From Chrysophaeum taylorii (Eukaryota > Sar > Pelagophyceae > Pelagomonadales > Pelagomonadaceae), in NCBI GenBank assembly GCA_029834535.1, contig JAQMWT010000117.1:37067-101066 (forward strand): a stretch of DNA of 64,000 nt. Reading direction: 5' to 3'. A model generated the notes under the pieces. The model was given only the letters and a program-made list of their open reading frames with translations. It made no database searches and was not told the origin of the DNA. A program made the position numbers and the translations under genes. Shown here piece after piece: positions 2,142-60,811 of the stretch. Numbering within the stretch: the stretch's first letter is position 1; each line of letters opens with the position of its first letter.

Positions 2142-2499
2142 TGTGGTGGAAACTCAGCTCACCCGCCCCTCTTCGCCTAACCGTCGGTCACAACGTGACC
2201 GCTCAACTGTCCTGAACCACGGGTGGTTCCACCACACGTCCAACCAAACGCTCACACTCCGCTCACGCCATGCTGTCGAACATTCAATTGAGGGTAATTT
2301 TAAGGAAACAGCAAGAATCGATAGATTCCAATGGGAGATCCATCAAGATATGCTAGATCGGCAAGAGCAACACAGGTCCTCGGTACAGGAGTATCCTTGG
2401 AGAAGCAGGTGTGGGTGTCAAGCATGACACCGCCAAATTCAAGGTAACAGGCAGGTAACAGGCACATAAGCGGGGGGGGGAATGGTTATTACCGCCACA
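2142..2499 (-). repeat. Gyp-A 3' LTR
   Basis: 358 bp, TGTGGTGGAAAC...TTACCGCCACA on the plus strand, bounded by TG...CA and matching 12028-12386 almost base for base. A run of G (C on the coding strand) lies about 25 bp inside the outer U3 edge. A polypurine-like tract, on the minus strand AGTAGGGGGCTCC, abuts its inner edge at 2500-2512. Confidence 0.9.
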
Positions 2500-2534
2500 G
2501 GAGCCCCCTACTTAAGGTGAAGTCGTCCTCGACT

Positions 2535-5500
2535 TCAAGGGTGACGAAGGTCGCGCGCACGAATGAGACGATAAGCGCGTTCAGCGATGTCCGTAGGGAC
2601 TTTGTTGCTGTGGAGGCTGAAGTTAGTGACAAGGGTATCGATCTCTTCAGGGCGGAAATCGTTGACACAAGGCTCACAGCCATCCATGTTCGCTCGAAAA
2701 CGAGTGAAACTGCATCCGTCACGATCTTTGTATTCTGGTCTTAATCGTCGCTCCGTTAGAGGCTTGGTAGGGTCGAAAACACGGGGGTCATCGCGTGAAC
2801 CTAGATCAGTATAATAGTGTAACGCCACAGTATCATTGTCGTGATCATAGTCTTCATAGACCTCGGCAACGTAGATACGTTTCTTCCACGCATTACCTCG
2901 TGCTTTGACCCGAAAAATGACAAATTTGCCGTGCTTAAAGCGGTCGCGGTCTGAAGGCGTGTGCAGGGGGGCTGAAGAGGTGTCGATTATCGGCACTTTC
3001 AAAGGCACAATCTGCTGCACGGATACCACAACGGGTTCGGCATTGTCGTCGTGCACGTCTTTAATTTCGTAAACGACTGGAGACTTCTTCTTGGTAACAA
3101 TATATGGGCCACGCCAAATAGGCCGCAACTTGTGACGCGTCTTAGGCACAAAACGCAAGACATAATCGCCAGGAGAGAACTGGATGTCGATCTGATGGGC
3201 GTCGTAGTTGATCTTCTGAGTCTCCTGGGCCTTTTGATGTGCCCGAGCGACGAGTTGACTGTAAAATTCAAACTTGTGCTTAAAGTCCGTCAGGATCTGT
3301 TGACGCGATTGAGGCAGACCACGCTGTTCGCCCAGGATGTTGTAATCAGGCGGTAACAGGGGTTGCTTGCCGGTACGCATCATAAACGGCGAGATCTTCG
3401 TTCCGGGGATATACATCCGGTTGTACATGAAAGCCACGCACTGGACAAAAATAGACCAGTCCGTTTGGCGCTGCTCATCCATCGCGGCCCGGAGGAAGGC
3501 CTTGATGAACCGATTGACTCGCTCAGTATGATTACTCTGTGGGTGATAAGGAATGGTCGTGCGGTATCGAACGTTGAATTGACGAACGAACGTCCGGAAC
3601 AACTTGTTCGCGAACTCACTACCATTATCCGTAACTATACACCGCGGGAGACATCCCTCGAGGACAATCTTGTCAACAAATGCATTCAAGATCGCGTAGT
3701 CATGCTTGGTATTTATCAACGCCAGCTTGAGAAAATGCGACGTAGCATCGTACATCGCGAGGATATACGTGTGCAAGTCGGCTCCTCTCAGTGGTCCAAA
3801 GAGATCCATTCCTAGGACATAGCAATCACCAATGCGATTCGGTTGGCAACGGAGACCATAGCGCTTCGGCACAGTGGATCGAATTTTCTGACAGATGATG
3901 CAGGCCTTGATGAAGTCGGTGACCGACGATATGACGTTGGGCCACCAGTATCGCTCCGAAATCTGGCTCGCTGTCGAATCTCGTCCCACATGGCCTCCGA
4001 ACAGCCCTCGATGGTGCATGGTGATCACACGCTCCTGCATCGACTGTGGGACCACAATCAGACGTCGAGATTCTGACTCGTCAACCTTGTACAAGACGTT
4101 GTCTTCGATCTCGTACGGCAGAGGTGGCTTATCGCGTGTATCCTTCTGCTCCGAATCGAGGCTCTGACGGATCTGCGTGCAAGTCTTGTCTTCAATCTGT
4201 TCTTTAGCTATCTCCTCGAGAGTGATCTCATCCTCAGCTTGATCAGCAAAAGGGAGCCGTTCAACGGGGTCTACCGGTTCGGCTTCGTACGCAAATTGAG
4301 GCGGCGGCGCGCTCCGACGCGTACTAACTGCTGCTAGAGCTGCAGTATACTCCCTGTCTGCCAACAGAGACATCGTCACTGATGAGAAGGTGAAGCACGC
4401 TGTGCCCGGAACATCGGTGGGGATCTCCTGGAAGATCAGATACGCTTCATTGATCGGTTCTCCGTCTTCGTCCTGCTCGATTAACTTGTCGATTGGATTG
4501 CGCGACAGGCAATCAGGGATGCGCATGCCCGGGGAATTTCCAGGTTTGTATCCGAGCTCCCGGTCGAACGCAGCAAGCCGCATAGCCCATCGTGCTAACT
4601 GTCCAGACGTATGATTCGAATCCCGCAGAAACGTTAAGTTACGATGATCCGTCTCTAACTTTGTCTGATGACCTTCGATATAAAATCGGAAATTTTCGAG
4701 AGCAGAGAGTACTGCGAGGAGTTCCAAGCGCCGAGGATCATATTTCCTCATCGATTTGGGCACAGTTCGACTCCAGTACTCAATAACTCTCTCCTCCACC
4801 CGTTCTTTTCCATCGTCACCAACGACTGGCACTTTCTGAAACAAGTAAGCGCCTAATCCATGCGCAGATGCATCCGTCCGAATGTAGAACGGCAATGAGT
4901 AGTCCGGATGGTAAATGCCCTTAGAAGTAACAATAGCTTCGATGATGGCATCCCAGGCCTCTCGACACTCTTTCGTCCACTCGAACTTAACATCTGGCAA
5001 AGTCAACTGTCTTAACGGCTCCGCGACTCGCGCGAAATTGCACACATAACGACGACAAAAACTCCCCATCCCAAGGAAGGAGCGGACTTGCTTTTTGGGA
5101 TCAGCATCTGACAAAGTACCAGGGATTGGCATATGCCGGATGGCCTCCGTCGATCTTGGTGACGGGAGAAGTCCATTCGGGGTAGACAAATGCCCCAAGA
5201 ATTCAATGACCTCCTTCATGAAGTGGATCTTCTTAACCTTGCCGCTATACCCTTTCGACGCCAAGTGGGGAATGACTTGAACAAGGCATTGCAAATGACT
5301 CTTAGTGTCTGCATGCCCAGCCAAAATGTCGTCGATATAAGCCACTAGGTCACGGTACAACCACTTCGACAGATCGGTGTTGAGTTGCTTGCAGAACAGG
5401 CTGCCAGCAGGCTTGACTCCCAAAGGTAAACGCATATAGCTGAATGCTCCCAAAGGACTAGTGAAGGTCACTACATCCTGCGCGTCCGCTGACAATCGCA

Positions 5501-6494
5501 AATTGTGGTAACCCCATCGGATGTCCATGCTAGAACGACGGAACTTGTCGGTGAGAAACATCAACGCGTCGGTCATGCTCACGCTCGGCCAACTGTCATC
5601 CTTGAGCAATTTGTTGAGGCGCCGCAGGTCGACAGCCGCTCTGTAAGCGTTGGAAGTGCCTGGCTCAGCCCCTTTCTTAGGCAGCATCAGGATAGGAAAA
5701 CCCCAAGGAGAGTTCGCGGGACGGACAACTCCGTCTCGGCTCCATTCCTCGATTTGAAGTCTCAAGCACTCGATCTTCTCCTTTGACAACCGATACGGCG
5801 ACAACTTAATCGGGCTCGGATTGTCCTCTTTGAACCGGAGGGTGACCTCAGGCGAATCAACGGGTCTCATCACGTCATCAAAGAATGCCCACGAGTAGGA
5901 AAGCAAGTGTCGCATCATCCGTTTTTCATCCTCATTTAAAGCGGGATGGTCTGTAATGCCCAGCGCAGCCATCACCTCTTCGACCTGCGCGACGGTCGGA
6001 GGGATGACTTGCATGCTCTCTTGATCAGCTAAATGAGGAGGCACCACTGGTACAGGATAACCATGTTCGTCGTTAGGCGCGTCCGCCCACGGAACTGCGT
6101 ACGTCTTGAAATACGCTGGTCGCTCCTTCAATGTGCCTTCCTCTTCAGCGGTCGTAGAGACTTGGTTGCTCTGCATCACAGCAGTGGCGACGGTGCCCCC
6201 TGAAAAAGATTGAGCCGTCCCAGGCGATACAACCAACGGTGGTGGTGGGGTGGCGGTGGGAACAGCGGTGACGTTTGAAGTTTGGCTGGAGTAGAGGTCG
6301 TCTTGATGGATCCATGACACACATCGGGTGTCAGGGTCGAGCGTGGGAATACGCGAGTCGATAGCAAAAGATGAAAACCGTAGAAGACGGTAATCGGGAT
6401 TGGCCATCGTCGCGGTAGTGATATTACGTAGTTGACCCTGATTGCGAATCACATGATCAAATGAATTATGCACTGCGAGTGCGATGCGCATCAT
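2535..6494 (-). CDS. pol: Gyp-A Pol: RT, RNase H, integrase and C-terminal module
   Basis: 1319 codons, uninterrupted. Residues 1-65 continue the methyltransferase/linker of the preceding ORF. Reverse transcriptase covers about 230-420, with VKPAGSLF and the catalytic YIDD at 386-389. RNase H covers about 535-665, with acidic residues D541 (TDASAHG), E591, D616 and D661. Integrase has an HHCC zinc site (H828, H835, C865, C868) and a catalytic core D897, D956 (TDNGSEF), E991. A GPY/F motif (RPIWRGPYIV) is at about 1124-1133. A further conserved module of about 150 residues follows (GKFVIFRV, KRIYVAEVYE, VALHYYTDLG). The element would replicate through its RNA and integrate in the nucleus. The ORF overlaps the methyltransferase ORF by 29 nt because of a GTAC duplication. 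Confidence 0.93.
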   Translation of the reverse strand: MMRIALAVHNSFDHVIRNQGQLRNITTATMANPDYRLLRFSSFAIDSRIPTLDPDTRCVSWIHQDDLYSSQTSNVTAVPTATPPPPLVVSPGTAQSFSGGTVATAVMQSNQVSTTAEEEGTLKERPAYFKTYAVPWADAPNDEHGYPVPVVPPHLADQESMQVIPPTVAQVEEVMAALGITDHPALNEDEKRMMRHLLSYSWAFFDDVMRPVDSPEVTLRFKEDNPSPIKLSPYRLSKEKIECLRLQIEEWSRDGVVRPANSPWGFPILMLPKKGAEPGTSNAYRAAVDLRRLNKLLKDDSWPSVSMTDALMFLTDKFRRSSMDIRWGYHNLRLSADAQDVVTFTSPLGAFSYMRLPLGVKPAGSLFCKQLNTDLSKWLYRDLVAYIDDILAGHADTKSHLQCLVQVIPHLASKGYSGKVKKIHFMKEVIEFLGHLSTPNGLLPSPRSTEAIRHMPIPGTLSDADPKKQVRSFLGMGSFCRRYVCNFARVAEPLRQLTLPDVKFEWTKECREAWDAIIEAIVTSKGIYHPDYSLPFYIRTDASAHGLGAYLFQKVPVVGDDGKERVEERVIEYWSRTVPKSMRKYDPRRLELLAVLSALENFRFYIEGHQTKLETDHRNLTFLRDSNHTSGQLARWAMRLAAFDRELGYKPGNSPGMRIPDCLSRNPIDKLIEQDEDGEPINEAYLIFQEIPTDVPGTACFTFSSVTMSLLADREYTAALAAVSTRRSAPPPQFAYEAEPVDPVERLPFADQAEDEITLEEIAKEQIEDKTCTQIRQSLDSEQKDTRDKPPLPYEIEDNVLYKVDESESRRLIVVPQSMQERVITMHHRGLFGGHVGRDSTASQISERYWWPNVISSVTDFIKACIICQKIRSTVPKRYGLRCQPNRIGDCYVLGMDLFGPLRGADLHTYILAMYDATSHFLKLALINTKHDYAILNAFVDKIVLEGCLPRCIVTDNGSEFANKLFRTFVRQFNVRYRTTIPYHPQSNHTERVNRFIKAFLRAAMDEQRQTDWSIFVQCVAFMYNRMYIPGTKISPFMMRTGKQPLLPPDYNILGEQRGLPQSRQQILTDFKHKFEFYSQLVARAHQKAQETQKINYDAHQIDIQFSPGDYVLRFVPKTRHKLRPIWRGPYIVTKKKSPVVYEIKDVHDDNAEPVVVSVQQIVPLKVPIIDTSSAPLHTPSDRDRFKHGKFVIFRVKARGNAWKKRIYVAEVYEDYDHDNDTVALHYYTDLGSRDDPRVFDPTKPLTERRLRPEYKDRDGCSFTRFRANMDGCEPCVNDFRPEEIDTLVTNFSLHSNKVPTDIAERAYRLIRARDLRHP

Positions 6495-7434
6495 AGTCGC
6501 AGGAGGTACGTACCATGCTCCCCAGCATCTTCATAGCCGCTGATTGCGAAATGCTACCCCATTTCCACGTCGTGGGGACGGTCATGATCTCCTGATGCAT
6601 TTCCACGGACAGTGGTCGCACATTGGAAACGTGAGGGCCCATCTGCAACTTATTGCGCGTCACTGTGAAAGTGGGGCCGATGGCTGGTCGCGTAGATGAA
6701 AAGCTGTTCACCACAATCAGAGGGTGACCACTCGGAAAGCCTAACGCTGGCCCGAAACGGTCCTGCAAATTGGGTGGCACTCGCGTCAGTAGTGGCAATG
6801 ACAAGCGCACATTGCTGCCAAGTAGGCGCGTGCGCGAACACAGCAATTCCGGGGTGATACTGTAAAAGTCAACCACACGCGGAATGTAGAACTTGTGATG
6901 GATAAAGGGAATCACGGATGGCTCCTGCTCCAACGTCCATCGTCCAATCACGTGAGGTGCATTGCGGAAATGACGCAGAACCCACGAGGTGATGGCAGCA
7001 CCCTTGCGCGCGTCCCTGTAGTGCAGGTTCGCGGTCGAGCCATAAATACAAGGAGGACTGGCGTGGAAGTACGAATGTCTCCAATGATCCTTATGTAGGT
7101 ATGACAAGACCACATCGTACGTGCGACGATGAGATTTCCCCAGGTCATGAAGCACGTACGGGATCTTAGGAAAGTTGAGCTGGAAAACAGCTCGCGCTTG
7201 TGGACATGAGTCCAAAGCCAACACAAAGCGAAAAGAGGTTCCATAGATCTCATTGCATCGTTGGATCCCCAAACTCGATCCACCAGCGCCGGCGAAATAA
7301 ACGACGACGCTGATATAGGTGATTGGAATCCAAACCAAAGAAGCATGCCTAGCAATAAGCTCCTGAGTCGTGGCTTCTTCCTTCGACATTTTTTTTGTTC
7401 CTTCTTCTGGAGGAGGTTCAGGAGGGGGTCTCAC
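6466..7434 (-). CDS. C5 cytosine DNA methyltransferase domain of Gyp-A
   Basis: The frame is open from about 7572, but the first usable start is the GTG at 7434 or ATG at 7389, so it is probably made as part of a polyprotein. Motifs of C5 methyltransferases appear in order, numbered from 7434. Motif I, FAGAGGSSLG, 47-56 (SAM binding). Motif IV, SPPC, with catalytic Cys129. Motif VI, LEQEPS, with Glu169 (usual ENV becomes EQE). Motif VIII, SRTR, 200-203. Motif IX, VRPLSVEMHQEIMTVP, 273-288. Motif X, KMLGSMV, 303-309. Between VIII and IX is a short variable region where target recognition would lie. There is no N-terminal regulatory domain. It should transfer a methyl group from SAM to cytosine in DNA. 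Relatives inside LTR retrotransposons have been described from some algae and dinoflagellates; an element-borne enzyme could methylate the element's own copies. Confidence 0.88.
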   Translation of the reverse strand: MRPPPEPPPEEGTKKMSKEEATTQELIARHASLVWIPITYISVVVYFAGAGGSSLGIQRCNEIYGTSFRFVLALDSCPQARAVFQLNFPKIPYVLHDLGKSHRRTYDVVLSYLHKDHWRHSYFHASPPCIYGSTANLHYRDARKGAAITSWVLRHFRNAPHVIGRWTLEQEPSVIPFIHHKFYIPRVVDFYSITPELLCSRTRLLGSNVRLSLPLLTRVPPNLQDRFGPALGFPSGHPLIVVNSFSSTRPAIGPTFTVTRNKLQMGPHVSNVRPLSVEMHQEIMTVPTTWKWGSISQSAAMKMLGSMVRTSCDYDAHRTRSA

Positions 7435-7543
7435 AGCTAAGACCTCCTCCTCGACTTCCGTCTCATCTTCGTCAGCTGAAGCAGTCGCAAAACAGACTCT
7501 TGTATCCTCTTCAGCGGCTTCCAGCTGTACTTTGACGCAACCT

Positions 7544-10057
7544 TCATGAAAAGTCGCATTCTCGCGCTCCTAGTAGTAGCTGCCCATTCGTCTGCCCCAC
7601 GAAAAACATCAGCAGAGTGGAAGTTCCAGGCGTCATAGAAACGCGCAAGATAATCCATTCGCGAATAGCCGCTCCCGAACCACCTGATCCGCTAAGAGTG
7701 CGAGTAGAGGGCAGCGCCTGGCGATGAATGATCTTATTTTCACGTCTGAGCTTGTTGTAGAGCACGTGATCGATGTATGGCGAGTCAGCCACACCATCCA
7801 GCCCAGCTGCAAGGACCGAATAAGATGCACCATCCTGAGTCACAACGGCGACAGGGATATACGTCAAACATGTCAACTTCGCCCCGTCGTATGTCACTGC
7901 TTTGTTCTCGCGATGATCGGGATGACTAGCTGTATTCATCGCTGTCTGCGGGCAGAACTCATCGAAATCAGAGCTAATGCTCGGGCATGCAGCGGAGCCA
8001 GTGGCAAGATCGTCTGATGACGGCTCCACAGCGATGGCCATCAATTGGTCTCGACCAGTAAACCAGCTTGGGTCCTCGTCTATCGACATCTCCCCTCCGT
8101 CTTGACTGGAGATGATAGACGCGACTTTGCGCACCTCAGCACTCCGACTCTCTTCTGCCGTCCATGCGTCCTCGGTGATCACCAAAAAGGAGGGCGGTTC
8201 CATGGGTTCATCACAAAAGGAGTGCTCCTCTGGTGTTACATCACCACGGCTCTCATCCTCGTCGTCTCCGCTGATCACATTGCCGTCAATCAGCGCCGCA
8301 TTCTGCACCGTGCATCCATTGAATCGCCTAGGGCCGCCCTGAACTTCACCAAGCACATCGAGCCACTGGGAGGCGGCGCCGGCACTGCACTGGCTGGGGT
8401 TGGCCTGCTGCTGTGTCGACTGGGTGGCTTGGCGTAGCAACGACAGGGTGTTTAGTGCCTGCGCAACGTCCTCCGATCTCAGCGTGCGCGATGCACTCTG
8501 CTGCTGCACCACTGGTTGCTGAACCATCTGCTGCGGAGCGGCTGCGATTACCTGTTGGGGACCTGCACCTGTGCCCTGCGCAGCAGTGTAGACGACCTGT
8601 GGGGGTGGCGTAAATGGTGCTTGAACGCGCTGCGTCACGGCAGCTTGATTAGCCGTGACCGCTTGTCGACATTGGGCCTGTCCTTCTGCCGTCGGTGGGA
8701 AGCCTGCAGCCTTCAACGTTCGGGCAGCGCGAGCTTTCCGATCAGGATTTCCAGGCTTAGGACACACCCCATCATCGTGCCCGTAATAAATATGCTTCCC
8801 ACATTTCACGCACGTCATCAACGCATAGCGTAACTCAGAGTCGAGATTCTCCGGAAGCCGACCAGACGCGTCAGAGCTGGTGACATAACCTGCTAGCTGC
8901 TGCTGCTGATACCATTCCTTACGCGTACGGTGGGGCTTGTCTTTTGGGACTTTGGTCTTTTTTGGATCTTCATGCTTGTCGCTGGACGTCCCCACCTCTG
9001 GCATCGCGTCCAATTGCAAGGCAAGTTGGAACGTCTGGTCTAGCGTTTGGTCCGGGGCCGAGATCCGCGCAAGGTGAATGTCGTGTCGGAGCTTTTCAGA
9101 CGATAACCCTCGGAGAAAGTGCATCCGAAAAGCTTCGGGTTCCACCGGGTTCTTAGAAGCAGCTCGCCATAGTCCAAATTTTTGGACCCACTTGCTGACG
9201 TACTTGGAAAGCGGAAGGTTGCCTTGCGTCATCGTGTACCACTCGTACTCCAGTTGCTCTGTAGTAGCTCGAGGAGGGCAGGGCAATAGGAGTGCCTCGA
9301 TTTTGGCCAAGTACTCCTCGTCGTGCTTACGGATTTCCGCCTTCGAAACACGTCCGCGTAAATACCCTTTCCATAGTGGCTTGTGCTCGTCTTCCCACTT
9401 GTTATAAACAGTCATGGGAGCGAGTTGATATTCGCCACCGATCATGTTCATGGCGCATGAAGGACGGTCGAGCCTTAGCTCGATGATCCGCATCAGTTGG
9501 TTCCACCACGTCCGTACTTCGTCACGCGTCTTGACAATAGGGCCCTGGAGTGTCGGGAAGTTCAACCTGTGCATCCCCGTCGGACCTCTATCGATGCTGA
9601 TGGTATCATCGAACTCATCATCGTCGCCAGAAGGATCGAAGTCAGGTGCAGAGGGCCTCCGCCGTATTGGTTCGGGATGCTTTCGAGGCGGGGGGTCGTC
9701 TGCACGATTTGCCGCGGCGTCGTCCGCTAGTTCCGGTCTGGCGCGATCAACGTCAGGTGATGGTGATCGCTTGTCTCGGACTCGCATGGCCTCTTTGAGC
9801 TCACGCCGCAGCTTCTCGGCCTCGTGCCGCTGAAACTCGGCCTCTCGACGATGTTGCTCGACGAGGGTAGTATCGAGAGATGGTGGATATTCTTCTCGAG
9901 CTCGTCTCGCATCTTCGATTTCTCGTCGAAGCCGTTCATTCTCGGCTCGTTCATGCTGAGCTGTCCGACGCTGAAGCTCAGCGTCTCGGTATTGGCGTTG
10001 AGACTCTTCTCGCTCGTATTCCATCGTCCCTTCGAGATAGTGGATCTTAGAGCGATA
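7544..10057 (-). CDS. gag: Gyp-A Gag-protease, main part
   Basis: The reading frame continues to 10090, but its first 11 codons come from the inserted Helitron-like element. The N-terminal part is a charged coiled coil (repeated RRE, ERA and REIEDARRAREE blocks). Next comes a capsid-like region (TWWNQLMRIIE, YEWYTMTQGNLPLSKYV, FLRGLSSEKLR). A C2HC-like zinc knuckle follows (CVKCGKHIYYGHDDGVC), then a Gln-rich stretch and an acidic spacer. The C-terminus is retropepsin-like: IPVAVVTQDG, then LDGVADSPYI where DTGA is expected, and QLLLGARECDF resembling the usual ILG.DFL. The stop at 7544 lies in a different frame from the methyltransferase. A +1 shift around the TTTTCATGA at 7544-7552 would join them, either programmed or a one-base mutation. 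Confidence 0.85.
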   Translation of the reverse strand, partial: YRSKIHYLEGTMEYEREESQRQYRDAELQRRTAQHERAENERLRREIEDARRAREEYPPSLDTTLVEQHRREAEFQRHEAEKLRRELKEAMRVRDKRSPSPDVDRARPELADDAAANRADDPPPRKHPEPIRRRPSAPDFDPSGDDDEFDDTISIDRGPTGMHRLNFPTLQGPIVKTRDEVRTWWNQLMRIIELRLDRPSCAMNMIGGEYQLAPMTVYNKWEDEHKPLWKGYLRGRVSKAEIRKHDEEYLAKIEALLLPCPPRATTEQLEYEWYTMTQGNLPLSKYVSKWVQKFGLWRAASKNPVEPEAFRMHFLRGLSSEKLRHDIHLARISAPDQTLDQTFQLALQLDAMPEVGTSSDKHEDPKKTKVPKDKPHRTRKEWYQQQQLAGYVTSSDASGRLPENLDSELRYALMTCVKCGKHIYYGHDDGVCPKPGNPDRKARAARTLKAAGFPPTAEGQAQCRQAVTANQAAVTQRVQAPFTPPPQVVYTAAQGTGAGPQQVIAAAPQQMVQQPVVQQQSASRTLRSEDVAQALNTLSLLRQATQSTQQQANPSQCSAGAASQWLDVLGEVQGGPRRFNGCTVQNAALIDGNVISGDDEDESRGDVTPEEHSFCDEPMEPPSFLVITEDAWTAEESRSAEVRKVASIISSQDGGEMSIDEDPSWFTGRDQLMAIAVEPSSDDLATGSAACPSISSDFDEFCPQTAMNTASHPDHRENKAVTYDGAKLTCLTYIPVAVVTQDGASYSVLAAGLDGVADSPYIDHVLYNKLRRENKIIHRQALPSTRTLSGSGGSGAAIREWIILRVSMTPGTSTLLMFFVGQTNGQLLLGARECDFS

Positions 10058-11045
10058 CAAGTGCAGGCCAGTAAGTTCACCTACTCCCAATCTCTAACCC
10101 CAGTAAGTTCACCTGGTCCCAGTAAGTTCACCTAGTCCCAATCTCTAACCCCAGTAAGTTCGGCGTAAGCCCACTCGTGCTCACATCCACTCACCCCACT
10201 CTCCTTCGAGCCCGTCGCTCTCACCTCCGCCAATCTAAGCTGCTTTGATCCGTACACGCCGCTAGCCTTTGCGTTCACTCTAAAAACCCCAGTAAGTTCA
10301 CTTGGTCCCAGTAAGTTCACCTGGTCACTCAGCTCACCTAGTCCCAATCTCCAACCCCAGTAAGTACACGTGGTCCCAGTAAGTTCACCTACAGTGCGCG
10401 TGTAGACGCCGGGAGGGGGCTTATCGGTATTGCGCAGCACGTGTGGGGTAGGGTGGAGTCGTCGACCCAGATGAGTATATCCTTGGGGATGCCGATCGAC
10501 AGAGAGCCACGTAGAGCTGGACGTGGCAGAAGACGGGCTTGGGAAAGAGGACGCCGACCTCGCGGGGCGTCTGGACCTGGCTCTTGTTGATCGTTTGGCG
10601 TAGGCGGGCCTTAAGCGATACAGGTTGGAGGAGCCTCGGTGACAACGACACGATCGATCATGTATCTGGTACCGTTGCAGTGGCCGTGCGACGGGTCGAG
10701 GTTGCGAAGACATTAAGCTCGCGATCAAAGTCAGCATGCCGTTGGTTGTCAGGGAGTTGAAAACTCTACTGTAAAGAGCGAGGCGTCGTCTTCCGACCCA
10801 ACCTAGTCGGCCGAAAAGAACTCCGACGCCTCGTCTCCGGGAAAAAAAGGCCGCGTCACGCGCGCGTTGTCAGCATCGACAACATCGTTTCGACGGGGCG
10901 TGAGAATGGCGCGCTGAAAGAGCCGCCGCGGGTCGTGGAAATAGTCTGCGAGGTCGCCGTAGACGGCTTGGAGGATCACTGTCTGGCTCTCGCGCCTACC
11001 TGATCCTTACTCTCGCGCCTACCTGATCCTTACCCTAAATCGAGG

Positions 11046-11105
<60 letters not shown>

Positions 11106-11122
11106 TCTGTCGATTAGTAGTT
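10058..11122 (-). mobile_element. Helitron-like short element, copy A, inserted in Gyp-A gag
   Basis: 1065 bp. Read on the minus strand it begins AACTACTAATCGACAGATG, runs through a TGTC microsatellite and a decayed Pif1/Helitron helicase C-terminus, then the GGTGAACTTACTG tandem-repeat tail, and ends CCTGCACTTG. Helicase-type segments include RAILTPRRNDVVDADNAR, LDPSHGHCNGTRYMI-like and INKSQGQTP, spread over several frames. No target duplication is visible; the flanking gag frames rejoin to within one base. Too short and too broken to be autonomous. Confidence 0.75.
11047..11104. repeat. (CAGA)n microsatellite in Helitron-like copy A
   Basis: About 14 consecutive ACAG tetranucleotides near the 5' end of copy A. 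The other copies have shorter, interrupted TGTC/TGTT runs at the same place (25025, 34048, 53215, 54245, 61405), so the microsatellite belongs to the element and varies in length. Confidence 0.9.
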
Positions 11123-11564
11123 AAGATTCTTCAACTTTTTCGAGGAGGGTGCGCATAAGCGCGGGATCCCCCTCTATCTTTTCTTCTCCAGCAATCGCAG
11201 AGTAAGGTGGGGCCGGCGGTGCTCGAGTCACCGGCTCCCGGTTTGCAGCTGGAGTTCCTGGGTCGGACCGTAGTCGTTCCGTACGGATCGTCTCGTCTTC
11301 TCGTACGTGCACGGGCATAGGCGTTGGCTCGCCCCCGACTACCGTTGCAGGCATAGGTTCTGGGGCTGTCATGGCCCCCACCTCTTCACTTTCTGGAGTG
11401 CGCACTTCTGGCCGGACAGCCGTATCCGCCGCACTCTCCACTGGTATCTCCACTCGTTCGCCACCCGTCCCGACATCTAGCCGTCTTCGGAGGGATGACT
11501 CCATCACTGGGGTGATGACTCGCCGCAGGCGTTCCTGGGCGTCCCGAAACCACGGGGCCGTCAT
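11121..11564 (-). CDS. gag: Gyp-A Gag, N-terminal part, cut off by Helitron-like copy A
   Basis: 147 codons from ATG at 11564 (MTAPWFRDAQERLRRVITPVM) to a TAA created by the first bases of the insertion. Pro/Glu/Thr-rich with no recognisable domain. It should be the natural start of Gag, because its last codons lead to the insertion point and the downstream gag frame resumes at 10057. The insertion must prevent production of full-length Gag from this copy, although 7544-10057 remains open. Confidence 0.65.
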   Translation of the reverse strand: MTAPWFRDAQERLRRVITPVMESSLRRRLDVGTGGERVEIPVESAADTAVRPEVRTPESEEVGAMTAPEPMPATVVGGEPTPMPVHVREDETIRTERLRSDPGTPAANREPVTRAPPAPPYSAIAGEEKIEGDPALMRTLLEKVEES

Positions 11565-12027
11565 CTAATTTTGTTTTTGTCGTCAAAGCAGCAATTTGCC
11601 GGCTACTGCTTGACTGCGCGCTTGAGCCGGTTTGCTAGAGGATATGGTCGTCCTCCCCGGCCTACCTGTTCTGGGAGATGGCTGTCTCCCCCAGGCGAAC
11701 TCTTTTTTTTTTTTCGGTTGTCTTGAGGATATGGTTGTCCTCCCCGATCTGCCGTTCTGGGATCGATGGCTTACTCCCCGCTCCCCAGGCGATTGTTTTT
11801 CGAGACTCACGACAACGTCCGCTCACGTTCGTACACGCCGAACGCTTGTTCCGCTTCGCGTATCGGAGTGACACCCTCGATTCGCCGGAACCGCACCCAC
11901 AAACACGTCGGCTCTGCACTCGCTCAAAGCCTGAACACCGATTCGCCGCCGAGCGCGGGAGACTGACAGTCCGGGATTCGCGTAACAACAACCCCGGAAA
12001 CTATCAGTTCCCGTTTCTGAGACCACC
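11565..12027 (-). promoter_or_regulatory. Gyp-A 5' leader with primer-binding site
   Basis: Leader between the 5' LTR and the Gag ATG. A candidate primer-binding site starts two bases inside the LTR on the minus strand (TGGTCTCAGAAACGGGAACTG, 12005-12025), beginning with TGG as expected for pairing to a tRNA CCA end; I cannot name the tRNA. Two imperfect direct repeats, at about 11637-11698 and 11725-11795, share GAGGATATGGT and GTCCTCCCC and end CCCCAGGCGA. A homopolymer of T (A on the coding strand) lies at about 11701-11713. Confidence 0.55.
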
Positions 12028-12386
12028 TGTGGTGGAAACTCAGCTCACCCGCCCCTCTTCGCCTAACCGTCGGTCACAACGTGACCGCTCAACTGTCCTG
12101 AACCACGGGTGGTTCCACCACACGTCCAACCAAACGCTCACACTCCGCTCACGCCATGCTGTCGAACATTCAATTGAGGGTAATTTTAAGGAAACAGCAA
12201 GAATCGATAGATTCCAATGGGAGATCCATCAAGATATGCTAGATCGGCAAGAGCAACACAGGTCCTCGGTACAGGAGTATCCTTGGAGAAGCAGGTGTGG
12301 GTGTCAAGCATGACACCGCCAAATTCAAGGTAACAGGCAGGTAACAGGCACATAAGTGGGGGGGGGGGGTGGTTATTACCGCCACA
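12028..12386 (-). repeat. Gyp-A 5' LTR
   Basis: 359 bp with the same TGTGGTGG...CCGCCACA borders as 2142-2499. The only differences I see are one C/T change and the length of the G-run. As the 5' LTR of a minus-strand element it should contain the promoter; I did not find a convincing TATA box. Confidence 0.9.
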
Positions 12387-12929
12387 GTGGGTGCGGGAGA
12401 TTGCGGAGAGATGTCACGGGCAGCGGTGTGCGTGGGAACCGGTGGCGAAGGATGGTCGACCTCAAGGTCCATGTCCGTGCCGGTGGGAAGAGGGTGTGTG
12501 CCAGACGAGGGGAGGTTCTCGGCGGCAATGTGGGTGGACATGAAGGACGGTTCGAGGTCCATAGGCGCAGGCTCGAGTGGTATGGGGTCATGAACTGTGG
12601 CGGAGGACCGCTGGCGGTGTGGGGGGCGGCGACGCGATGCAGGAGAGTTTTCGGCAGAGGGACCGGGAGGGTGGGTGGCTGGCGCCGTGGTGGGTATTGG
12701 GAGGGGCGCGGTGGTATTGGCGGTCCCCGCGTTCGGTGGAGGCGCGATGTCCGTAGCAACAGATCATGGTGGCGCGCGGCGGCGGGGGCCATGGCGGCGC
12801 GGTGCCGGTGTCGCAGCGGGCGGAGGGGGATTCGCATTGGTGGGTTCCCGACGGCGAGGGGGGGAGGTAGCGGACCCTGCCTCCGATGACTCCAGGTCCA
12901 TAGCCGCAGGCCCAGGAGGGGTGGTGTTA
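12387..12929 (-). pseudogene. Pro-rich ORF, 5' half of the gene split by Gyp-A
   Basis: The minus-strand frame is open from the Gyp-B LTR to Gyp-A except for a TGA at about 12764-12766. The protein is rich in Pro, Ala, Ser and Thr and carries three spaced MDLE motifs (PAAMDLESS, PAPMDLEPS, GTDMDLEVD). It runs in phase into 2141-1168 across the Gyp-A insertion. Its upstream end is cut by the Gyp-B LTR and no start is visible. With a stop and two insertions it is a relic, or the source gene is elsewhere. No known domain was recognised in this half. Confidence 0.4.
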
Positions 12930-13282: not shown

Positions 13283-14626
13283 TCAGCGAGTCCGGCGAGA
13301 AGCACGTGCCTTGGCTGAATGAGCATCTCGAGGACGAATCTTCTTGTAGGCACGTTCAACGACAGGTTCAGGAACGCGTCCACGACGCAAAGTGAACTTA
13401 GGAATCAACACATCGATCTCATGCGGAGCGAAGTCGGTGACACAAGGAGTGGTACTGTTGTTGACATTGGTCTTGTTGGTGAAACTGCGATCGTCCACGC
13501 CCTTGTATTCCGGCTTAAGCTTGCGAGTAGAGAGATGTGAAGTAGGCTTGTAATAAGAAACCTTGTCATGGGGACCGAGATCAGCATAGAAATGCAGAGC
13601 GACTCGATCATTCACAAAATCATAGGGTTCATAAACTTCAGCGACATAAATCTTCTTTCGCCAATCGGACCGTTTATTATCCGGAATCCGAAAGATAACG
13701 AACTTACCATGCTTGTAATCATCCCGAAAGGTCTCCTTGGGCTGGGCACAGCTCGATCGACCACTGGAGAAACCATCACAGGGGTAATCTGACTAACATG
13801 AACACAACGGCGTTCGGGAGGAGAATCAAGAGACCCAATCCTGTAAGTGACCGGGGACAAGCGTTCCAAAATAACGAATGGACCGCGCCATTCCGGTCGA
13901 AGCTTGTTCTGAAGAAAAGGGATGTAGAGCAGAACATGTGAACCTTCTTCATACTCCACATCAACATGGTCCGCATTATAGGCGAGACGTTGTTTACGAA
14001 GAGGCTTCTCACGAGCTTCGTTCACCGTAGCGGTATTGAATTTCAACCCCTCGCGAGTCTCTGCCACAACATCGGATCGAGTTTTCGGCAGGCGGCGGAC
14101 ATCAAGATCCATGATCGTATAATCTGTTGGCAATAGAGGCTGCCTGCCGGTTGAGACGAAGCATGAAAGGTGAGATCTGAGTCCCCGGAATAAATTTACG
14201 ATCGTAACAGAAAGCAATGTACTCCGCGAATTCGGGCCATTCCGTGTTCTTGCGGTTTTGAAGGCACGCACGGAGGAAAGCCTTGATAAAGCGGTTGACC
14301 CTTTCCGCTGGATTAGCCTGAGCATGATACGGAATCGTGGTACTATACCGAACATTGAAAGGATGACAAAACTCTTCCATCGACTTGTTGACGGACTCTT
14401 TCCCATTGTCGGTACGAATCCTCTGATGTAGATAACCTTTGAGTAATACATTCGCGAAAAAAGACTCGAGGATTGACTCAGCAGTCTTTTTTTTTTGGTG
14501 TAGTACGTCAAGAATCAAGAAACGAGAAAATGGATAAAAAAAAACGATGAGATATGTCTCGGGACCAGCATTGGGCAAAGGTCCAAACAAATCCATACAA
14601 AGGACGACACAATCACCATCATACAC
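13283..14626 (-). pseudogene. pol: Gyp-B Pol: integrase core and C-terminal module, frameshifted
   Basis: Frame 14102-14626 holds the integrase core: CMDLFGPL (first Asp), RTDNGKES (second Asp) and AERVNRFIKAF (Glu). A shift near 14120 leads to frame 13612-14511 with YTIMDLDVRRLPK and the GPY/F motif RPEWRGPFV. Another shift near 13690 leads to 13283-13615 with DRVALHFYADLG and the conserved C-terminal RGRVPEPVVERAYK. Two or three shifts make it non-functional. The domain order matches Gyp-A residues 890-1319. Confidence 0.8.
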
Positions 14627-17103
14627 CGGTTGCTGAAGCAGACTGCTCTCTTTGGTTCAGGCGTACGAGCTTTCTTGCACACTATGCAACCAGCAATGTA
14701 AGCACCCACCTCATTAGACATATGAGGCCACCAAAAACGTTCAAGTATCGACTGCACTGTACTTTGACGACCCATATGACCACCATTGAGAGGTGTGTCA
14801 TGGTACAATCGGATGATGCGCGTCCGTAAAGTTCGGGGTGCGACTATCATCGGGTGCAAGTCGGGTGCGGCACGGTAGAGAACTCCTGTCACCACTTGAT
14901 AGCGATAATTGGCTCCGTACCGACGAAGAGAATGGCCCTGAGCCATGCGATAACGAATGTCCTCGCAAGTAGCATCAGTGATCTGCTCTTTGGCTATCTC
15001 TTCCAAAGTCAAATTATCCGGAATCTTGTCGATGTACTCTTGGTAATCATCGGCATCACGGAAAATACTAGGCTGGGTCTGAAGTCGTTGCTTCTGACGT
15101 TGTTTCGTAGCATGAGACGTGACCAATTGCATCGGATCATCGAGGTCTTCTTCCTCTTCCTCCACAGGCAACTCAGTCGTAACAAACGACAGAATGACAT
15201 GGCACCCAGGTAAAGGTACTCCTTCATCATCAACAGAACGAGGGAGTTCTTGGCACACTAGATACGCGTGGTTCAAGGGTTCACCAAACTCGTCCGTCTC
15301 GATGACATGATCTATAGGATTGCGAGAGAGACAGTCAGGGATGCTCATTCCCGGCGACTTCCCTGGCTTGTAACCCAATTCAGGATCAAAATTGGCGAGC
15401 CGCATCGCCCATCGAGCCAACTGCCCAGACGAGTGCTTCGCCTTTCGTAAAAACGTCAAGTTGCGATGATCTGTTTCAAGGATCGTCTTGTGACCTTCAA
15501 TATAAGAGCGGAAATGCTCAAGAGAAAGAATAACTGCCAGGAGCTCTAGCCGGCGAGGCTCATAGTTCCGCATCTCTTTCGGCACAGCTCGGCTCCAATA
15601 CTCAATTACTCGTTCCTCTCGTGTCACCTTGCCGGTTTCGTCCTTGATTTCCACGAGCTGAAAAAGATACGCACCCAGACCATCCTTGGAAGCATCCGAG
15701 CGGATCTGAAAAGGAAGATCGTAGTCAGGATGATAAACTCCACGAGAATCCACCAAAGCTTCGATGATCGTGTCCCATGCCTTTTGGCACTCAGGCGTCC
15801 ACTCAAACTTAACGCCTTCAAGACACAATCGCCTAAGCGGCTCCACAATCTTCGAATAATTCTTCACATATCGGCGGCAATAGTTGCTCATACCAATGAA
15901 AGATCGAATCTGGGTCTTCGGGGACGTATTGGGCAACGTACCGGGAATCGGCATCTGCTGCAACGCTTCTAACGTCTTGGGATTCGGCTTCAAGCCTTCC
16001 GGAGTCGAAATATGTCCCAAAACTCGATTTCATCCTTGAGGAGGTGGAACTTCGAAGTTCGTCCACTATATCCTCGCTGTGCTAAATGGCACAACACTTC
16101 AATCAAAACTTGTAAATGTCGATGGAGTTCATCCGATCCCATCATAATATCGTCGACAAACGCGACCAAGTCCTTATACATCCATGTGGACAAATCGCTA
16201 GCCATCTGCTTACGAAAGAGAGCTCCTGCTGTTTTTACTCCTAGAGGCAAGCGCATGAAACTATGGGCTCCAAGTGGACTAACCATCGTAACAGCGTCCC
16301 GAGCAGCGGCGTCCAAACGTAAGTTATGATAACCCCATCGAATATCAATGCACGTCCGCCAACGGCGCATGGCAAGAAAAGCCAAAGCATCATCTTGACG
16401 AATATTCGGCCAACTGTCATTGACCAGCTGATCATTGAGCTGACGCAAGTCAACGGCAGCACCGAAAAGCATTCGACGTCCCGGCCTCGGCTCCCTTCTT
16501 AGGCAGCATCAGTACAGGAAATCCCCACGGAGAGTTCGCCGGTCGGATGACTCCATCGCGACACCACTCAGTGATCTGCTTTCTGAGACACTCGAGCTTT
16601 GCTGGCGTCAACCTATAAGGCGTCATCTTGATCGGTCGTGGGTTTGCGTCTTTAAAGCGTAAAGAAACCGGTGGCGAGTCCACGGGTTTCATAATCGGAT
16701 CAAAGAAAGCACACGCGTATTGCACGCAATGGTTCAACATCATCTTCGGATCATCATCCAGATGCGGGTTGTCGGGAATTCCTAGATATCGAACAACCTT
16801 CTCGACTTCTTCCTTCGTCGGAATTTCGACTTTCATCGCATCATTGTCCTTGACGTGCTCGGGAGTCTGCGGTAACGGTACACCGTCCGCATCGCGCGGC
16901 GTATCCTTCCATGGCACATCGAACTTTTCTTCGTATTTGAACCTCACCTCAGGGTGGCTCTTATTGATCTTTTCACCTTTGACGCGCACATTCGGCTCGC
17001 TCCTTACTTTCGGCTCCTGTTCAGGTTCAGGATCCGGCGGAACGTCCACTTTTGATTGTCGGGGGGGGGGCAGCAGAAAAAACATAAGCCGTCCCCGGCG
17101 CAT
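14515..17103 (-). pseudogene. pol: Gyp-B Pol: RT, RNase H and integrase zinc domain, frameshifted
   Basis: Frame 16450-17103 has the linker and RT start (PYRLTPAKLECLRKQI, SPWGFPVLMLPKKG). After a shift near 16470, frame 15990-16472 has the RT core with FVDD (FVDDIMMG). After another near 16015, frame 14515-16020 has RNase H (IRSDASKDGLGAYLF, ETDHRNLTFL, IPDCLSRNP) and the integrase zinc domain (YHDTPLNGGHMGR, CIVCKK). The pieces align end to end with Gyp-A Pol 150-900. The first frame begins at a C10 tract at 17061-17070, where Gag-side and Pol frames are out of phase. Confidence 0.85.
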
Positions 17104-18856
17104 CAGCTGGAAGCGGAAGCATAGGAACTTCTAGTAATCGTCGTTTCTCGTCCATCAAATCGGACATTCCCGTCAACTTCGCCTCCATCGGCGCCGCTGT
17201 GGTCTGCTCTGCTGCGACTAAAACGGTATCGGCTAGAACATCGGCTAAAACGGCTAAAACGGTCTCGGGGGGGGGCGTAGGAAAAGAAGACGTCGTCCTC
17301 GACGTCAACTCAAAAGGTCTAACGTCATCATCGTAAACTGCCCTGCAAGACATGCACATTGACGAATGGGGGGACACTGGAACCTGCGGCATGGGTTCGT
17401 CAGTCTCCGAATCTGAGTCTTCCCAGTAGTGCGGAGAATCCCAAGTAGCATCTGACATTGCTTTCACATACGATGTCGAAGGCCACCGAACGATCCGAGC
17501 GTTTGTGGTATGTTGCTCCTGTTGCAAACGATGGCTGCTCGTCACAGCGACATCGGCAACATCATCGGAGACTCGGGCAGGGCGCGCCGTCGGGTAAAAG
17601 ACAACCCCCGACATTGGCGGCGCGTCGCATAAAGATTGGAACGCGGAAGATGCGCTCGAATGCCCCGAACTATCCTGATATCTGCCTCCGTCATACTCGT
17701 CATCATAATGTCGATGACGTCGGCGCCGGCGCGAATGGCGACTAGAGCTCCGGTGACGGCAATGGCTCGGGCTGTCTTGAGCAGTATGGGCTTTTCGATT
17801 AGGGCTCTGGCTTCGATGTCGGCGCGACGATCGTCTAGAGGGTGATCGTCCGTCTCGCTGTCGTGTAGAAAACGACGTAGTATCCTTGATGCTTCTGACC
17901 TCGCTCACCATGGTCGCCATTGTGGTTCCAAGATCGGTGAGGGCCGTTTGAATTTCATTAGAAGGCTCCGATCCGTGCGTGGCGTTCGCATTAGATGCAT
18001 CATCACGCTTTGCCCAATCGGACCGCGATATGGGCTGCTTCTTCTGCTTTCGACTGCGCTTCCACATCGCACAGTAGTAACGATCCGGATCGCGGTTGCA
18101 AACTACGCGATTTCCGTGTTCATCTTCATCATGGGTGGTCCAAAAGAACCCACAGTGCGGGCAGGTTCTCTTGCCCCACAAAAAAGGATCTCGTAAAATC
18201 AGCGGATCCGTATTCCCAGACGGTTTACCCGCATCTTGATTGGCTTGTTGATCGGAGGCCATAGCTCGAACTCCCCGCCCTCGCGGCGGTTTATTCGATT
18301 TCGGATTAGGTGGGCCTTGGTCCTTCTCCTCCTCCATCAACTTTCGTAAGTCGTTCTCGAGCCGCGTAATAAGCGCTACCATCGACTTAAAAGTCACGAA
18401 ACTATCAGGATGTCCGCTCCTCATAGTCCGCACACGGGTCCTCAACTCCGTGGACGTCAATCCACTGATAAGCTGGTCGAGGATATCGACATCATCCATC
18501 GTGCGGCTGGACACGGAACAAAACTCCAAGGCCTCAGATTGGAATCTGGTACAATACGTTTGGACGTGCCGCTCCCCAGACTTCTTCGGAACTGAAGCCT
18601 GGGTGACCTTCCGCAGCTTTTCAAGCAGCTCCTGCTGCGTGCGCGGAGGTCGGCAAGTCGATCTAAAATAATCCAAAATCTTGTCGCAATACGTCTTGTT
18701 AAGACGACGGATACGACGAACCGAGACTCCATGCTCTTCATCGTCAGTATCTAATTTCAAGTAAAACGACGGACCGTGTGGTAGCTCATCGCAGAGCTCC
18801 TCGTATTTCTGCAAGTGTTCCTCAAAAATTGGTGCAACGGTGTCCCGTAGATGCAC
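17027..18856 (-). CDS. gag: Gyp-B Gag, capsid and zinc-knuckle part
   Basis: 609 codons. The capsid-like region starts LRDTVAPIFEEHLQKY and includes VPKKSGERHVQTYCTRF and LDQLISGLTSTELRTRVR. A basic stretch follows, then a zinc-binding cluster (CPHCGFFWTTHDEDEHG with downstream Cys). After that come an Arg/Ser-rich tract of RSRRRHR type and an acidic tail (YWEDSDSETDE). The last part has fused to the Pol linker (PADAPGTAYVFSAAPPP) with no protease between them. The expected upstream residues (SVEKLRYLLP) are in phase but lack a start, so Gag is split from 18894-19736 by a one-base shift near 18890. Confidence 0.8.
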   Translation of the reverse strand: MHLRDTVAPIFEEHLQKYEELCDELPHGPSFYLKLDTDDEEHGVSVRRIRRLNKTYCDKILDYFRSTCRPPRTQQELLEKLRKVTQASVPKKSGERHVQTYCTRFQSEALEFCSVSSRTMDDVDILDQLISGLTSTELRTRVRTMRSGHPDSFVTFKSMVALITRLENDLRKLMEEEKDQGPPNPKSNKPPRGRGVRAMASDQQANQDAGKPSGNTDPLILRDPFLWGKRTCPHCGFFWTTHDEDEHGNRVVCNRDPDRYYCAMWKRSRKQKKQPISRSDWAKRDDASNANATHGSEPSNEIQTALTDLGTTMATMVSEVRSIKDTTSFSTRQRDGRSPSRRSSRRHRSQSPNRKAHTAQDSPSHCRHRSSSRHSRRRRRHRHYDDEYDGGRYQDSSGHSSASSAFQSLCDAPPMSGVVFYPTARPARVSDDVADVAVTSSHRLQQEQHTTNARIVRWPSTSYVKAMSDATWDSPHYWEDSDSETDEPMPQVPVSPHSSMCMSCRAVYDDDVRPFELTSRTTSSFPTPPPETVLAVLADVLADTVLVAAEQTTAAPMEAKLTGMSDLMDEKRRLLEVPMLPLPADAPGTAYVFSAAPPPTIKSGRSAGS

Positions 18857-18893
18857 AGGTAGTAAGTAGCGTAATTTCTCGACCGAGTAATGG

Positions 18894-19736
18894 TCATCTG
18901 CTAAAAGTATGCATCATCGCCGCCGAATCCAAATTGAATTGCCGTTGGTCTCGGCCGTCGATGACGAGTTTGAAGTTATCAGGCTTCAAACTGGAAGTGG
19001 GTCGATGGGATCGGCTCAAGTTGCCCTTTTCGAAGGCGTTGGCAACCGTCTGCGATATTCCCCGCGATAATTCCCGTAAAAGTTTCGTACTTTCATTCTC
19101 AGTGTCCGCCCTACCCTCATTCTCCGTATCGACTCGGGGCGGAGGTTCATTCCCCGTTTCAGTGTTCCTTACCGGTTCAGGCGGCCTCACGGGCGTTTCC
19201 GGTTTGGGTCGACTCACGGGTCGTTCGCGGCTACTCTCCCGACGCGTACGTTCGGCTAACAATTTATCTCGTTCACGACGAAATCGTTCAACCTCTTCAC
19301 GTAGGGTCTTCGAGGTCTCAATCTCTTGCTGTAATGCATCATTGAGCATATCAACTTCTCGTCGAGCCGCTTCCTCTTTCGCTTCAGCTCTTTCACGAGC
19401 AAAAAGCTCAGCTAATCGTTCATTTTCGCGACGTCTCCGCTCGAGGTCTTCACGAAGTCGACTTCGGGCTGCAGATCCGCGCTCAATAGTAACACGCTCG
19501 CCACGATCCGGAGTCGTTGGACTCAACGGCGAAAAAATGGCAGTATCCGGAGGCACATCAGGGGGCACGTCAGCAACGTCGACTGCCTCGGCCTCTCTTA
19601 ATTCACCTTCCTCGCGGCCTATCTCAGGGGCGGCGGGAAGAACCGGAGGAGGTTCTTCCTCACGCACGTCTGCGTTTATCTCCATACTGTATAAAATATC
19701 GATCAAGAATTTCGAAACACGTCCGGATCCGATCAC
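18894..19736 (-). CDS. gag: Gyp-B Gag, N-terminal coiled-coil part
   Basis: 280 codons. After a Pro/Glu-rich start comes a long charged coiled coil (LREDLERRRRENERLAELFA, EEVERFRRERDKLLAERTRR), then GNEPPPRVDTENE and the capsid entry FKLVIDGRDQRQFNLDSAA. The same entry motif occurs in Gyp-C at about 35130. The frame ends in TFSR-stop where the homologous protein continues in another frame into 18856, so a one-base indel near 18890 splits Gag. The likely start is the ATG at about 19685 (MEINADVREEE). Confidence 0.75.
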   Translation of the reverse strand: MIGSGRVSKFLIDILYSMEINADVREEEPPPVLPAAPEIGREEGELREAEAVDVADVPPDVPPDTAIFSPLSPTTPDRGERVTIERGSAARSRLREDLERRRRENERLAELFARERAEAKEEAARREVDMLNDALQQEIETSKTLREEVERFRRERDKLLAERTRRESSRERPVSRPKPETPVRPPEPVRNTETGNEPPPRVDTENEGRADTENESTKLLRELSRGISQTVANAFEKGNLSRSHRPTSSLKPDNFKLVIDGRDQRQFNLDSAAMMHTFSR

Positions 19737-20118
19737 TCGAAGTAATTCACGTTGATTCCAACAACGCTATCTGTCGCTGTAAAAACAGCACGCACGGAAC
19801 TCCAATCCGCTGGCAATTCAAAAATGCTCGTGGGTAGCGATCCCACTCGCTAAACAGCTTCCACCGTTCAGCTATACCAAAATCAATTCCCGGGAGAATG
19901 CGCTGCGATTTCCAACTCGCACGCGTGTTCGTCGTCACTCGGATCGTACGAACGCAAACAACGTTCGCGTATATTCTCAACGCAAACCGGTCCAATGGAA
20001 CTCCGTGTGCTTGATCAGGGCTCACGTACAAATCCGGACCACGTAATACAACACCTACGGCAGCACTCGCTCGTCGGCGACCGATGTAGTCGCACGATCT
20101 CGTGTACTCCACCACGTA
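19737..20118 (-). promoter_or_regulatory. Gyp-B 5' leader with primer-binding site
   Basis: The leader begins (minus strand) TACGTGGTGGAGTACACGAG. The TGGTGGAG core, followed by ACGAGAT, is shared with the Gyp-C leader at the same place and is the candidate primer-binding site. The next 80 bases are also conserved with Gyp-C (ATCGGTCG, GGTCCGGA). An ORF at 19747-20157 crosses from the LTR through the leader; it has no recognisable domain and I do not claim it as a protein. Confidence 0.5.
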
Positions 20119-23361: not shown

Positions 23362-23415
23362 GTTCAGTGAGGTCTAGGGCGAGTCGGTGAGTACCCCCTT
23401 TGTCACCCGGGGGTC
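23362..23415 (+). repeat. Fragment of a Gyp-B-type LTR
   Basis: The 54 bases are the reverse complement of the beginning of the Gyp-B LTR (GTTCAGTGAGGTCTAGG through GTGACAAAGGG, here inverted to CCCTTTGTCACCCGGGGGTC). They represent the remains of another, oppositely oriented copy of the family. Confidence 0.75.
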
Positions 23416-23473
23416 CATAATAGCGTTTGGTTTCCTTTATACCCTTACCCTGATTTGGTTTGGTTTCCTTTAT

Positions 23474-29598: not shown

Positions 29599-29619
29599 CT
29601 GAAGTAAATGCCGTTCGTC

Positions 29620-50193: not shown

Positions 50194-50205
50194 GATGTCA
50201 ATTCC

Positions 50206-59271: not shown

Positions 59272-59360
59272 GGTGATTCTTACGTCACCAAGAAAACTGC
59301 CGGACAGTCCGATGACCGTCCAATTTACCCCGCACTTTTGACAGGTCCTCTCGGTCTAAC

Positions 59361-60680: not shown

Positions 60681-60811
60681 CTACTGTCACGCCCAGTGTT
60701 TCTCTCACAAGAGTCCAATCTCCGCAAACCCTCTGTCATGTTACGTTGTTCTGGTTTGTCAACTCCGGCGTTCCTGTCTCAAGCCACTAATGACTTAGGC
60801 TTAAATATCAA

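Follow-up and report, generated by a model that had tools for sequence, protein, structure and literature searches.

Retrotransposons of the Gypsy, DIRS and long interspersed nuclear element (LINE) types that carry a DNA methyltransferase (DNMT) are known from dinoflagellates and Klebsormidium (PMC5890265; what is said here of this and the other papers cited by accession applies to the parts of their text that were available). Two of the DIRS-borne domains methylate CG in yeast, no methylation was seen for the LINE-borne enzymes and the Klebsormidium Gypsy enzyme, a result termed inconclusive there, and an element-borne enzyme has been proposed to methylate complementary DNA (cDNA), as is proposed below. 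A further such element, here called Gyp-A, lies on the minus strand of a 64,000-nucleotide stretch of the Chrysophaeum taylorii genome (contig JAQMWT010000117.1, positions 37,067 to 101,066), which is referred to as the window; it is a Ty3/Gypsy element with a predicted C5-cytosine methyltransferase in its polyprotein.

KnitGypsy-Dnmt3 of Klebsormidium nitens (de Mendoza 2018, PMC5890265) resembles Gyp-A in its Ty3/Gypsy domains, its C5-methyltransferase within the Pol polyprotein and its purifying selection. Its enzyme is of the Dnmt3 type and its repeats have a DIRS-like arrangement, whereas Gyp-A has ordinary direct long terminal repeats (LTRs), an enzyme that is very divergent and has no detected relatives, a domain placed behind a protease-like region and probably a red-plastid alga as its host. 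SymbioDIRS-Dnmt3 and SymbioLINE-Dnmt of Symbiodinium (PMC5890265) likewise present hundreds of retrotransposon-borne methyltransferases per genome, in several classes and under purifying selection, but are DIRS and LINE elements of dinoflagellate hosts; the Symbiodinium Copia elements in the same account are without a methyltransferase domain. DNMT3 has been stated to occur in 'LTR Copia and DIRS' elements (PMC12344493, citing the 2018 paper), which, read literally, would be a Copia precedent, although the cited paper has a Klebsormidium Gypsy element, not a Copia element. Retrotransposons bearing DAM and DCM enzymes are recorded from Stramenopiles and Rhodophyta, among others, with the two kinds not separated (PMC6338049), and a case like Gyp-A could be among those meant. 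The TET/JBP-bearing transposons of fungi (PMC12730594) also carry a DNA-modification enzyme, but they are DNA transposons and the enzyme is a dioxygenase; no retrotransposon carrier was found there. No such element appears in the text examined of PMC9998398 and PMC10538959, and within the literature searched no genome was reported in which both Gypsy and Copia lineages bear such enzymes. What is new in the present case is the other host lineage, the very divergent enzyme and the several element lineages in one genome.

Identity and setting of the Gyp-A methyltransferase

The domain occupies a stop-to-stop frame of 367 amino acids (aa) at 6466–7569, in which the unbroken methyltransferase stretch extends to residue 354 and is followed by an out-of-frame tail. 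The frame gives a significant match to the Pfam profile PF00145 (E 9.4e-7, 29 bits against a cut-off of 22) in a single scoring stretch, residues 92–174, that covers the motif I–IV part. A sibling copy (L010) scores in two stretches (whole E 7.6e-8, 32.6 bits), the better of them at the motif IX–X end (profile positions 257–321). Motif I (FAGAGGSSLG, residues 92–101), motif IV (ASPPC, with the catalytic Cys174), motif VI (LEQE, with Glu214) and motifs VIII, IX and X (SRTR, 245–248; RPLSVEM, 318–324; LGSMV, 349–353) are ordered as expected for a C5-methyltransferase, both in Gyp-A and in an alignment of related copies (A2). A preliminary description of this DNA, made from the sequence without database searches, had reported a C5-methyltransferase with this motif order in a Gypsy element; the Pfam match, the conserved motifs and the selection described below bear it out, its Cys129 being Cys174 in the present numbering. 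A profile built from A2 found just two sequences in the PDB at E ≤ 10, both named cytosine-specific methyltransferase and both aligned over motif I–II (E 0.76 and 1.7); these matches, weak alone, agree with the order and conservation of the motifs.

Several observations count against this identification. C5-methyltransferases usually have a Gln following PPC in motif IV and ENV in motif VI; Gyp-A is without that Gln, reads EQE rather than ENV, and departs from the consensus in motif X (GSM). A phmmer search of the PDB with the single Gyp-A frame found no methyltransferase, and the AlphaFold model of the domain is poor (pLDDT 37.8), with oxidoreductases as its best structural matches. That the domain is instead some other Rossmann-fold protein whose motifs match by chance is nevertheless very improbable, given the PF00145 E-values, the nature of both PDB profile matches and the conservation of ordered motifs at 37% identity; a model with a pLDDT of about 38 is too low in confidence to decide. 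Protein searches detected no relatives of the enzyme. Judged by its sequence, the domain appears to be a short, very divergent C5-methyltransferase, and a C5-cytosine methyltransferase within a Gypsy polyprotein is almost certainly what is encoded. The features of the element are as follows.

6466–7569, minus strand: C5-cytosine methyltransferase domain (PF00145, alignments A1 and A2, selection), in the native frame as far as residue 354 (about base 6508)
2142–12386, minus strand: Gyp-A Ty3/Gypsy element from LTR to LTR, delimited by the LTR pair, termini, flanking repeat and Pol domain order
12028–12386, minus strand: 5′ LTR; the BLAST match is one base longer, and the adjoining GGTGGTCTCAGAAACGGG is, by eye, a possible primer-binding site
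2142–2499, minus strand: 3′ LTR; the BLAST match is one base longer, and AAGTAGGGGG before it is, by eye, a possible polypurine tract
7544–10093, minus strand: open frame of 849 aa, Gag and protease-like, continuous with the methyltransferase and reverse transcriptase (RT) in L010
2535–6530, minus strand: Pol frame (RVT_1 8e-13, RT_RNaseH 2e-25, H2C2 3e-17, rve 3e-8)
10058–11125, no strand: nested insertion of 1.07 kb in the 5′ region of Gag, absent from the copy on C225

The Pfam matches place RT, RNase H and integrase in the Ty3/Gypsy order. The LTRs (2142–2500 against 12028–12387 in the BLAST match) are 98.9% identical over 360 columns, with three mismatches and one gap opening, and their ends were set at 2499 and 12386 because the TGTGG...CCACA termini are flanked there on both sides by the 4-bp repeat CCAC (minus strand). 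The Pol domains, together with the LTR identity, the TG...CA ends and the CCAC repeat, identify an LTR retrotransposon of the Ty3/Gypsy type with a rather recent insertion, so that its earlier characterization as a young copy with near-identical LTRs is fair; the lineage is apparently autonomous. The frame at 7544–10093 contains a zinc-knuckle-like CxxC-H-C and a protease-like LDGVAD, both recognized by eye only, and a Pfam scan of it gave no match.

Two sibling copies, on C225 (L010) and C311 (L011), show 99% identity over residues 8–354; their open frames measure 2129 and 2115 aa, respectively. In C225 the frame takes in Gag, protease, methyltransferase and RT and stops within the RNase H region, and this copy is therefore likewise not whole. 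The protease side, the methyltransferase and both RT motifs fall in a single frame at 4 of 30 loci (L010, L011, L017 and L038), the last of which reads SPSC for SPPC. The native arrangement is thus one frame for Gag-protease, methyltransferase and RT, not three: the location between protease and Pol given in the preliminary description is right, whereas the separate frames are not, since sibling copies keep one frame and the window copy is broken on either side of the methyltransferase. Its term 'near-intact' likewise suits the domain and not the element, which has these frame breaks and the nested insertion. An alignment of the window copy with C225 opens 47 gaps in 5.4 kb of Pol and methyltransferase; some of the frame breaks may therefore be assembly errors, which cannot be distinguished here from true breaks. 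The nested insertion shares an open frame (...RRRGVGVLFGRLGWVG...) with inserts at 25123–25617 and 54324–54964 and also holds GTAAGTTCACCT repeats and a CAGA tract.

Conservation, selection and the Gyp-B family

A search of the genome assembly (70.8 Mb, 697 contigs) found at least 118 matches to the Gyp-A domain, some loci giving two; this is a lower bound because 111 of 936 candidates were scored. Most matches have 75–83% identity, some 85–99% and some 57–74%. Of the 19 rows in alignment A2, all selected as stop-free, 16 are from the set of 30 Gyp-A loci and three are loci of a sister family, Gyp-B. Cys174, Glu214, Arg246 and Arg248 are invariant in all 19, down to 37% identity, as is E216, and at least 90% of the rows have Q215. 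The EQE that had been remarked on earlier as divergent is therefore present across the Gyp-A and Gyp-B rows and is a family trait, the sister family at 37–38% identity included. When the 30 loci were scanned for motifs, the pattern matched the SPPC and LEQE regions in all but L012 and L033; of the 28 matched loci, 27 have SPPC (SPSC in L038) and 27 have LEQE (LEHE in L031).

Ratios of nonsynonymous to synonymous change (dN/dS) were calculated for pairs with dS of 0.2–1.5, other pairs being dropped. The median for the methyltransferase is 0.094 (range 0.06–0.13; 45 of 435 pairs, 30 loci), against 0.076 for RT (0.05–0.64; 100 of 297 pairs, 25 loci) and 0.20 for Gag-protease (0.14–0.39; 17 of 184 pairs, 20 loci). 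For the closest copies the ratio rests on few changes, as in the comparison of the window copy with L012 (dN/dS 1.16 at dS 0.015). Evolution keeps the Gyp-A methyltransferase domain intact, with a dN/dS close to that of RT.

The sister family has its own copy in the window:

29377–30306, minus strand: Gyp-B methyltransferase domain, frame broken, with Arg at the catalytic Cys position (SPPR)

The Gyp-B domain has at least 149 genome matches (149 of 1007 candidates scored), shares 37–38% identity with that of Gyp-A, and has retained ASPPC and LIEQE in L059–L061; its median dN/dS is 0.062 (range 0.04–0.44; 17 pairs, 7 loci). The SPPR of the window copy and the stops in many copies would fit a dead passenger, a captured gene fragment that hitchhikes without catalytic function. 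Such a fragment is most unlikely to have kept catalytic residues invariant among stop-free rows, or median dN/dS values of 0.05–0.15 across four families (single pairs reaching 0.61). The Gyp-A methyltransferase, as far as its residues allow a prediction, is very probably active in full copies.

Two Gyp-B matches (G000:C5:548806 and C5:524748) sit in open frames of more than 3000 aa. A Gyp-B derivative without protease and methyltransferase, in which Gag continues straight into Pol, occurs in the window (13283–19766, minus strand) and on C105 and C25 (L066, L067). Its Gag-Pol junction is identical at the three loci, which points to a deletion lineage, apparently one that has spread.

Methyltransferase domains in Copia elements

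Beyond what had been described from the window sequence, methyltransferase motifs also occur in Copia elements of this genome, including a family that is represented in the window. A genome scan with PF00145 gave 57 matches, and among eight loci cut out, L003–L008 belong to one retroelement family, Copia-1, which may account for up to 55 of the 57; ten distinct loci were examined, among them L042 (C96), L043 (C314), L044 (C582), L045 (C328) and L041 (C120). L042 is a single frame of 1952 aa with PF00145 (1.1e-7), RVT_2 (1.6e-38) and rve (0.006, below its cut-off), and L043 has PF00145 (5e-7) plus RVT_2. The methyltransferase of the Copia-1 polyprotein lies between a protease-like region, recognized by eye, and integrase/RVT_2. 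A profile of the family (A3) found seven PDB sequences at E ≤ 10, all C5-methyltransferases, with M.HhaI the best (E 0.045), and the median dN/dS of the domain is 0.148 (range 0.09–0.61; 45 pairs, 10 loci).

A second family, Copia-2, is present in the window together with a relative:

48591–50492, minus strand: Copia-2 methyltransferase-like domain and second domain, split by an insertion at about 49867–50192
60723–62788, plus strand: relative of Copia-2, diverged to about 40% identity (233 aa), with methyltransferase motifs readable and the frame broken

Copia-2 has 186 genome matches from 93 scored candidates, most loci being counted twice, and its motifs are CSGMS, TSPC, EMTPP and QARER. 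PF00145 stays below its cut-off on an uninterrupted relative (E 0.18, 11.7 bits) and was not found in a second scan, and the Copia-2 profile matched no methyltransferase in the PDB; the assignment is therefore by motifs only. As in Gyp-A and Copia-1, the domains of Gyp-B and Copia-2 come behind a protease-like region. The median dN/dS of the Copia-2 domain is 0.053 (43 pairs, 11 loci). The diverged relative retains TPPC, EMT and SRERW at 61.4–62.8 kb in its broken frame. The Copia-type elements of the window (48591–50492, minus strand, and 57468–62948, plus strand) combine methyltransferase motifs with a further conserved domain, which lies downstream of the methyltransferase in both Copia families (dN/dS 0.148 in Copia-1 and 0.086 in Copia-2) and has no Pfam match. 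By eye, the last third of this domain recalls the 2OG-Fe(II) dioxygenases (HxD in Copia-1, a GG strand and a distal His).

Profile comparison of the Gypsy and Copia domains showed no significant similarity, and they differ in motifs IV and VI. They are accordingly read, with modest confidence, as pointing to at least two captures of a methyltransferase, one by Gypsy and one by Copia elements; divergence from one source is possible. Copia-1 and Copia-2 align collinearly at 21–24% identity, the second domain included (profile E 0.4, not significant).

Other features of the window and genome include a second repeated insert at 23378–23833, 49646–50182 and 58768–59268 (open frame ...MNPEPCEGIRPPGVGWHLFASRAG...), one copy of which splits the Copia-2 methyltransferase. 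L001 (C634) is a host DNMT2-like gene beside a light-harvesting protein, and L002 (C621) is a second host-type methyltransferase gene with GTSC and LENV motifs in a frame of 2086 aa.

Possible roles of the element-borne enzymes

In Ty3-type elements the Gag-Pol products are packaged with RNA and reverse transcription takes place inside the particle. Because Gag, protease, methyltransferase and RT share one frame in Gyp-A, the usual Ty3-type Gag-Pol route would package the methyltransferase together with RT. The polyprotein would enter a virus-like particle with the genomic RNA, the protease would release the methyltransferase or leave it fused to RT, and the enzyme would methylate new element cDNA no later than at integration, and the copy would thus be marked already on its arrival in the genome. 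The benefit is the least certain step: the mark may pass the cDNA off as host DNA or shield it from host attack, or it may set the chromatin state of the new copy. A packaged Gyp-A enzyme that methylates its own cDNA is, taken as a whole, the somewhat favored explanation, and there is about an even chance that element cDNA is the main substrate. The equivalent place of the Copia-1 domain, behind a protease-like region, supports it.

Other observations speak against cDNA methylation. The preliminary description had suggested that the element marks its own DNA, a role that we also infer, and the CpG statistics show no footprint of it. Observed/expected CpG is 0.97–1.10 in Gyp-A stretches against 1.26–1.46 at two host gene loci, lower than at these loci and not depleted. 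In copies more than 95% identical, transitions are 2.4–2.7% at CG against 1.9% at CHH and transversions 1.5–1.7% against 0.7%; in copies 85–95% identical, the values are 7.8–8.1% against 4.8% and 2.7–3.2% against 2.0%. Transversions at CG are thus raised too in both identity classes, and no CpG-specific C-to-T excess is seen. The pattern would be no different if methylation were in another sequence context or if deamination were low. The protease of Gyp-A was assigned by eye. Finally, three of the four loci examined in the Gyp-B derivative's group are without the domain, which is kept on C40 (L068); the enzyme is therefore dispensable in cis, and full copies may supply help.

The missing CG-decay footprint in element DNA would also suit an RNA substrate, either the genomic RNA of the element or its tRNA primer, with DNMT2-like methylation aiding packaging or priming. 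RNA has been raised as a substrate of LINE-borne enzymes (PMC5890265), and ASPPC of Gyp-A resembles SPPC of the host DNMT2 (L001). Beyond SPPC, however, the DNMT2 motif (SPPCQPHTR in L001) has no counterpart in Gyp-A, which reads ASPPCIYGS, and the idea is unlikely. Equally doubtful is action in trans on host chromatin, for example at target sites or on competing elements, rather than on the element's own cDNA: carriers are many (at least 118 Gyp-A and at least 149 Gyp-B matches, and 186 for Copia-2 from 93 scored candidates), whereas the place of the enzyme inside the Gag-Pol frame favors delivery with the integration machinery.

The company that Gyp-A keeps in its genome is more interesting than the single copy. 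Tentatively, and short of an even chance, a methyltransferase just behind the protease may be a common LTR-retrotransposon design in this host, arisen at least twice independently, in Ty3/Gypsy and in Ty1/Copia elements, with a further conserved domain following the enzyme in the latter; together such elements would make up a self-methylating mobilome responsible for much of the methylation in the host, each lineage's enzyme perhaps having its own sequence context. The published cytosine cases that were found are from dinoflagellates and a single charophyte. Cytosine methylation usually silences transposons, and elements with their own writer reverse that relationship. A small algal genome (71 Mb) with hundreds of Gypsy and Copia matches allows a direct test of the methylation of element cDNA by its own enzyme and of the sequence context, and in the same genome it can be tested whether recurrent capture reflects a need common to the LTR elements of this host.
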